From positions 1 to 64,000 of the forward strand of contig RFVF01000020.1 of NCBI GenBank assembly GCA_009922615.1: 64,000 nt of DNA, in the 5' to 3' direction. Within the stretch, counting starts at the first letter, position 1; each line of letters begins with the position of its first letter. The DNA is from Pseudomonadota bacterium. Lineage in GTDB: Bacteria; Verrucomicrobiota; Verrucomicrobiia; Limisphaerales; SXTU01. A program made the translations under genes and the position numbers. Positions 55,721 to 56,378 of this stretch are shown here, piece by piece. A model generated the notes under the pieces. It was given only the letters and a program-made list of their open reading frames with translations, ran no database searches and was not told the origin of the DNA.

Positions 55721-56378
55721 TCAAATCTCGACCCGCCCCTCAAAGGAGAAATCCGCCGGACCGTTGAGGCGCACGTCGGAGAAACCCTCACCGTTCGATT
55801 GAAAGCTGACTTCCAACGTGTCGCCGCCCTGCACCAGCACCTTCACCGGGGACGTGAAGCCTTGCACGCGCGAGGCGATCATCGCTGCCGCGCTGACGCC
55901 CGTGCCGCAGGCGAGCGTCTCGCCCGAGGACCGCGTGCGGAACGCCGGTGTTGAGCGAGTGAATCGCCGTGGAGCCAGTGGAGAGCAGGACTTGCTCGTT
56001 GAACCGCAAGCTGTGCGGCGGCGTCAGATTCACGGTCACGCGCTCGCCTTGGAAGGTTGCGGTGATGACGCCGGCGACTGTCTCGAACGTCACGCGGTCC
56101 TTCGCGCCGGTGAGCCGTTGGATGTAGCGGGCGAAGCATCGCGCGCCGTTGCCACACATTTCCGCCCGGCTGCCGTCGCTGTTCCAAAACTCCCACGCCC
56201 AGTCGGCTTTTCTTGAAGGGCAGTGGACAAGCAGCATCAAACCGTCTGCGCCGATGCCGCGCTGGCGGTGGCAGAGATGCGCGACCTGCTCGGGCGTGAG
56301 CCGGATATTTCCAGCCCGGTTATCGGCGAGGATGAAGTCATTGCCCGCGCCGTTCATCTTGATGAATTCCAAAATCAT
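55721..56378 (-). pseudogene. dapF: Diaminopimelate epimerase with an internal deletion and frameshift
   Basis: The ATG at 56378 starts IKMNGAGNDFILADN, the invariant DapF opening, followed by EMCGNGARCFARY with the first catalytic cysteine and HSLNTGVPHAV. At about 55925-55945 the frame breaks. In the other frame sequence resumes at SGETLACGTGVSAAAM with the second catalytic cysteine and runs to a normal C-terminus ending FSFEGRVEI. About 75 residues that normally link these segments are missing. The two cysteines of the racemisation pair are therefore in different frames. dapF is normally essential for meso-diaminopimelate. The loss is either an assembly error or implies another route to meso-DAP. 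Confidence 0.85.

Follow-up and report, generated by a model that had tools for sequence, protein, structure and literature searches.

The window, by which we mean the whole 64,000-nucleotide stretch of DNA analysed, carries a dapF gene on its minus strand (56378-55721) that is broken at 55925/55926. The features at this locus are as follows.

55926-56378, minus strand: N-terminal part of dapF, with an ATG start at 56378, matching TIGR00652 positions 2-159 (E 3.9e-40).
55721-55925, minus strand: C-terminal part of dapF in another frame, placed by DNA alignment and matching TIGR00652 positions 206-268 (E 3.7e-10).
55925-55926, minus strand: junction at which a 152-base block of the relatives is absent, placed to within a few bases and containing no N.
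55910-55924, no strand assigned: inverted repeat GGCGAG-ACG-CTCGCC, a perfect 6-bp repeat with a 3-base loop, touching the junction.

To locate the break, the DNA was aligned with nine relatives, of which eight are genus mates (one having a broken dapF of its own) and the ninth belongs to the same order. The gap is a single clean block between GTTCCGCACGCGGTCCTC and GGGCGAGACGCTCGCC. The N-terminal part is whole as far as NTGVPHAVL and includes the cysteine of MCGNGARC, the C-terminal part spans GETLACGTG to the TGA stop codon (55723-55721), and everything between the two is gone. Measured against each of G001, G002, G004, G006, G007, G009, and G010, the gap is exactly 152 bases, or 50 codons plus 2 bases (3x50+2), which shifts the reading frame. 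A preliminary description of this DNA had put the loss at about 225 bases, or 75 residues, which was too large. Its claims that the two parts lie in different frames and that the break separates two cysteines were both borne out: the matches to the 270-position TIGR00652 profile fall in two frames with no continuous frame across it, and MCGNGARC and LACGTG, whose cysteines we take to be catalytic, are both present on opposite sides of the junction. Within the missing 152 bases lie the GTNVNF and YERG motifs, which are kept in intact genus mates. We take the Asn of the former and the Glu-Arg of the latter to be the substrate-binding stretch between the DapF cysteines, and the region belongs to a stretch alignable with solved DapF structures. 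Both halves therefore match the DapF family (TIGR00652, PF01678) and retain its two cysteine motifs, but with some 50 codons gone and the frame changed, no complete enzyme is encoded as assembled.

What remains of the gene shows no sign of decay. There are no stops in the 171 codons common to this draft (G000), G005, and G002, and we found no second lesion in the rest of dapF. The dN/dS of the G000 gene against its eight genus mates is 0.032-0.112, similar to the 0.049-0.099 of six intact dapF pairs. The gene thus does not look like a decayed pseudogene, and only a very recent loss would fit. The remaining coding constraint, kept in both halves, might also be expected if the broken gene still yielded a working enzyme through frameshifting or as two chains. 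However, frameshifting could not supply about 50 residues that are wholly absent, including GTNVNF and YERG, and we give this reading next to no credence.

The draft comprises 5.5 Mb in 331 contigs and is 92.6% complete, and its DapF sequence is closest, among named records, to drafts of uncultured Verrucomicrobiota, of which one bears the label Pedosphaera. The preliminary description reasoned that, if the loss were real, meso-diaminopimelate (meso-DAP) would have to be made in another way, and called for searches of the rest of the genome for dapF, dapL, and ddh. In the 5.5-Mb draft, the broken dapF is the single copy, no second dapF was found, and the missing 52 residues have no copy elsewhere (best E 0.9). 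DapL is present (C247:45465-46685), as are DapB, LysA, and MurE. The MurE carries DNPR, presumably the motif of a MurE that adds meso-DAP. No Ddh rose above the cut-off in G000, where a weak match covered the first 51 positions only, and no MurI-type glutamate racemase was found across the whole genome. No replacement epimerase was found. DapL makes LL-DAP, and it is DapF that converts LL-DAP to meso-DAP, according to the portion of the source consulted (PMC4176475). DapF would thus still be required downstream of DapL, for both cell wall and lysine, and with DapB, DapL, LysA, and MurE present and neither Ddh nor MurI found, it should be indispensable. Excerpts of a study on Chlamydia trachomatis report that its DapF doubles as a glutamate racemase, a double role that the authors propose for other members of the superphylum that lack MurI (PMC5885031). 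By analogy, the DapF of G000 may also be bifunctional, in which case the absence of MurI would make it doubly needed.

We then compared the draft with its genus mates more widely. A total of 183,520 bases of G000 were examined, of which 63,490 were alignable to stretches of genus mates. In these ~63 kb, at least two further genes are broken by clean gaps, of 116 and 160 bases, and further clean gaps lie in sister drafts, including a different block of dapF itself. The gaps outside the window are as follows.

G000, C276 near 26,674: sulfatase (Pfam) gene with 116 bases missing and the frame changed, compared with G004 only.
G000, C125 near 31,853: gene with HPTWCPGCGDFSVL, 160 bases missing including an intergenic stretch and the start codon, compared with G001 only.
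G005, C27:149432-150084: dapF with 139 bases missing as one clean block, not the one absent from G000, and the frame shifted.
G004, C436: PQQ/laminin-G domain protein gene with 131 bases missing, the gene being whole in G000, G001, and G005.

We take the gene with HPTWCPGCGDFSVL to be a probable beta subunit of 2-oxoacid:ferredoxin oxidoreductase. Together with the break in the window, the five gaps (in G000, G005, and G004) all measure 116-160 bases, a common scale that suggests one technical cause, though it is no proof of one. The 183,520 bases of G000 contain no N at all, so joins in this stretch are not marked as gaps. Other differences of at least 25 bases in G000 (26, 27, 29, 29, 86, and 218 bases) fall in non-coding, short, or variable stretches and were left out of the count of gene breaks. 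A 97-base coding difference between G004 and G005 was likewise not counted because it is not a clean gap, and several matches from the frame-break screen were dropped as spurious reading frames, for example antisense to or upstream of DapL.

Broken essential genes also occur more widely among related drafts. A dapF match was found in 292 of 320 genomes of the order, and in seven of these 292 the gene is interrupted within a single contig (G000, G005, G070, G093, G124, G208, and G252). In G208 and G252, the break lies at N-runs with duplicated flanks, and in G070, G093, and G124, there are two matches on one contig each, with no N in the locus. In a gyrB control covering 58 genomes of the order, the gene is split inside one contig in two, at an N-run in G036 and by a 22-base gap in G007, while the partial gyrB of G013, G034, and G048 extends to a contig end. 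The rate at which essential genes are broken in such drafts is thus a few per cent. In the genus itself, nine of 11 genomes have a dapF match and two of those nine (G000 and G005) have the gene broken, with no match in G003 and G008. This rate is above that of the order (2/9 vs. 7/292) and could hint at something specific to the genus, although the numbers are small. We note that G003 is reported as 92% complete in 950 contigs yet has no dapF match, possibly owing to a contig break.

From these results, we infer that the break in dapF very probably arose through a local error in assembling this metagenome draft. Three observations favor this reading: the remainder of the gene is as conserved as in intact relatives and has no second lesion; clean gaps break at least two other genes of the draft; and sister drafts show the same type of break, while N-runs interrupt dapF or gyrB in others. 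In joining two pieces, perhaps at a scaffold join or across a weakly covered stretch, the assembly would have omitted some 150 bases of an otherwise normal, essential dapF. The organism would then most likely have an intact dapF, whose product epimerizes the LL-DAP from DapL to the meso-DAP used by MurE and LysA. Passages of a review on metagenome curation describe local assembly errors, and gaps with duplicated flanks as a known scaffolding error (PMC7111523). As in those passages, conserved genes are broken here, several per draft, giving incorrect protein-coding sequences; unlike the scaffold-join gaps described there, the dapF join carries no N and is recognizable only through relatives or reads. 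Some results count against an assembly error: the lack of N at the joins, the higher rate of broken dapF in the genus, the single relative behind each of the other two gaps in G000, and the fact that the drop-out of the missing blocks is explained by neither their GC content nor their folding energy. As a set, these blocks do not stand out, ranking among background windows anywhere between 10 of 126 and 117 of 127, and no microhomology at the junction was obvious by eye. The inverted repeat that touches the junction (fold −6.3 kcal/mol) occupies the stretch encoding the active-site motif, which relatives largely keep, and as a hairpin it was rejected as the cause of drop-out because intact relatives have it too.

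The best-surviving alternative is that the sampled strain has truly lost dapF by a very recent deletion, with meso-DAP, or D-glutamate and lysine, coming from neighbours or another epimerase. It would account for the sole dapF of the draft being broken, for the break in the genus mate G005, and for the lack of a dapF match in G003 and G008. Still, we consider it improbable, because the genome retains LysA and a meso-DAP type MurE and yields neither MurI nor an above-cut-off Ddh, the dapF remainder is undecayed, and the same type of gap occurs in unrelated genes of the draft. In a wider version, which we find very unlikely, the loss of the sole DapF is real and has occurred repeatedly in one genus: a Verrucomicrobiota lineage that has DapL, LysA, and a meso-DAP type MurE would then obtain meso-DAP, and perhaps D-glutamate, through an unknown epimerase or from neighbours. 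Strain mixture, in which intact and deleted dapF alleles coexist and the assembly took a minor or chimeric path, is more doubtful again. The review's passages note that metagenome assemblies can merge strains (PMC7111523), and the junction is clean and has no N, but a second allele could be traced on no contig, and equally clean gaps in unrelated genes call for a general cause. We therefore favor assembly error, which the preliminary description had named as the case that would refute loss, given the other clean gene-breaking gaps in the draft; with these gaps and no replacement epimerase found, the reading of the break as a loss is unsupported.

Overall, the dapF break is most likely ordinary, an artefact rather than a biological loss. 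Several such gaps recur in this group, and they serve as a caution that clean, N-free gaps of ~115-160 bases can mimic the loss of essential genes in draft genomes. A real break would call for an unknown epimerase in the genus.
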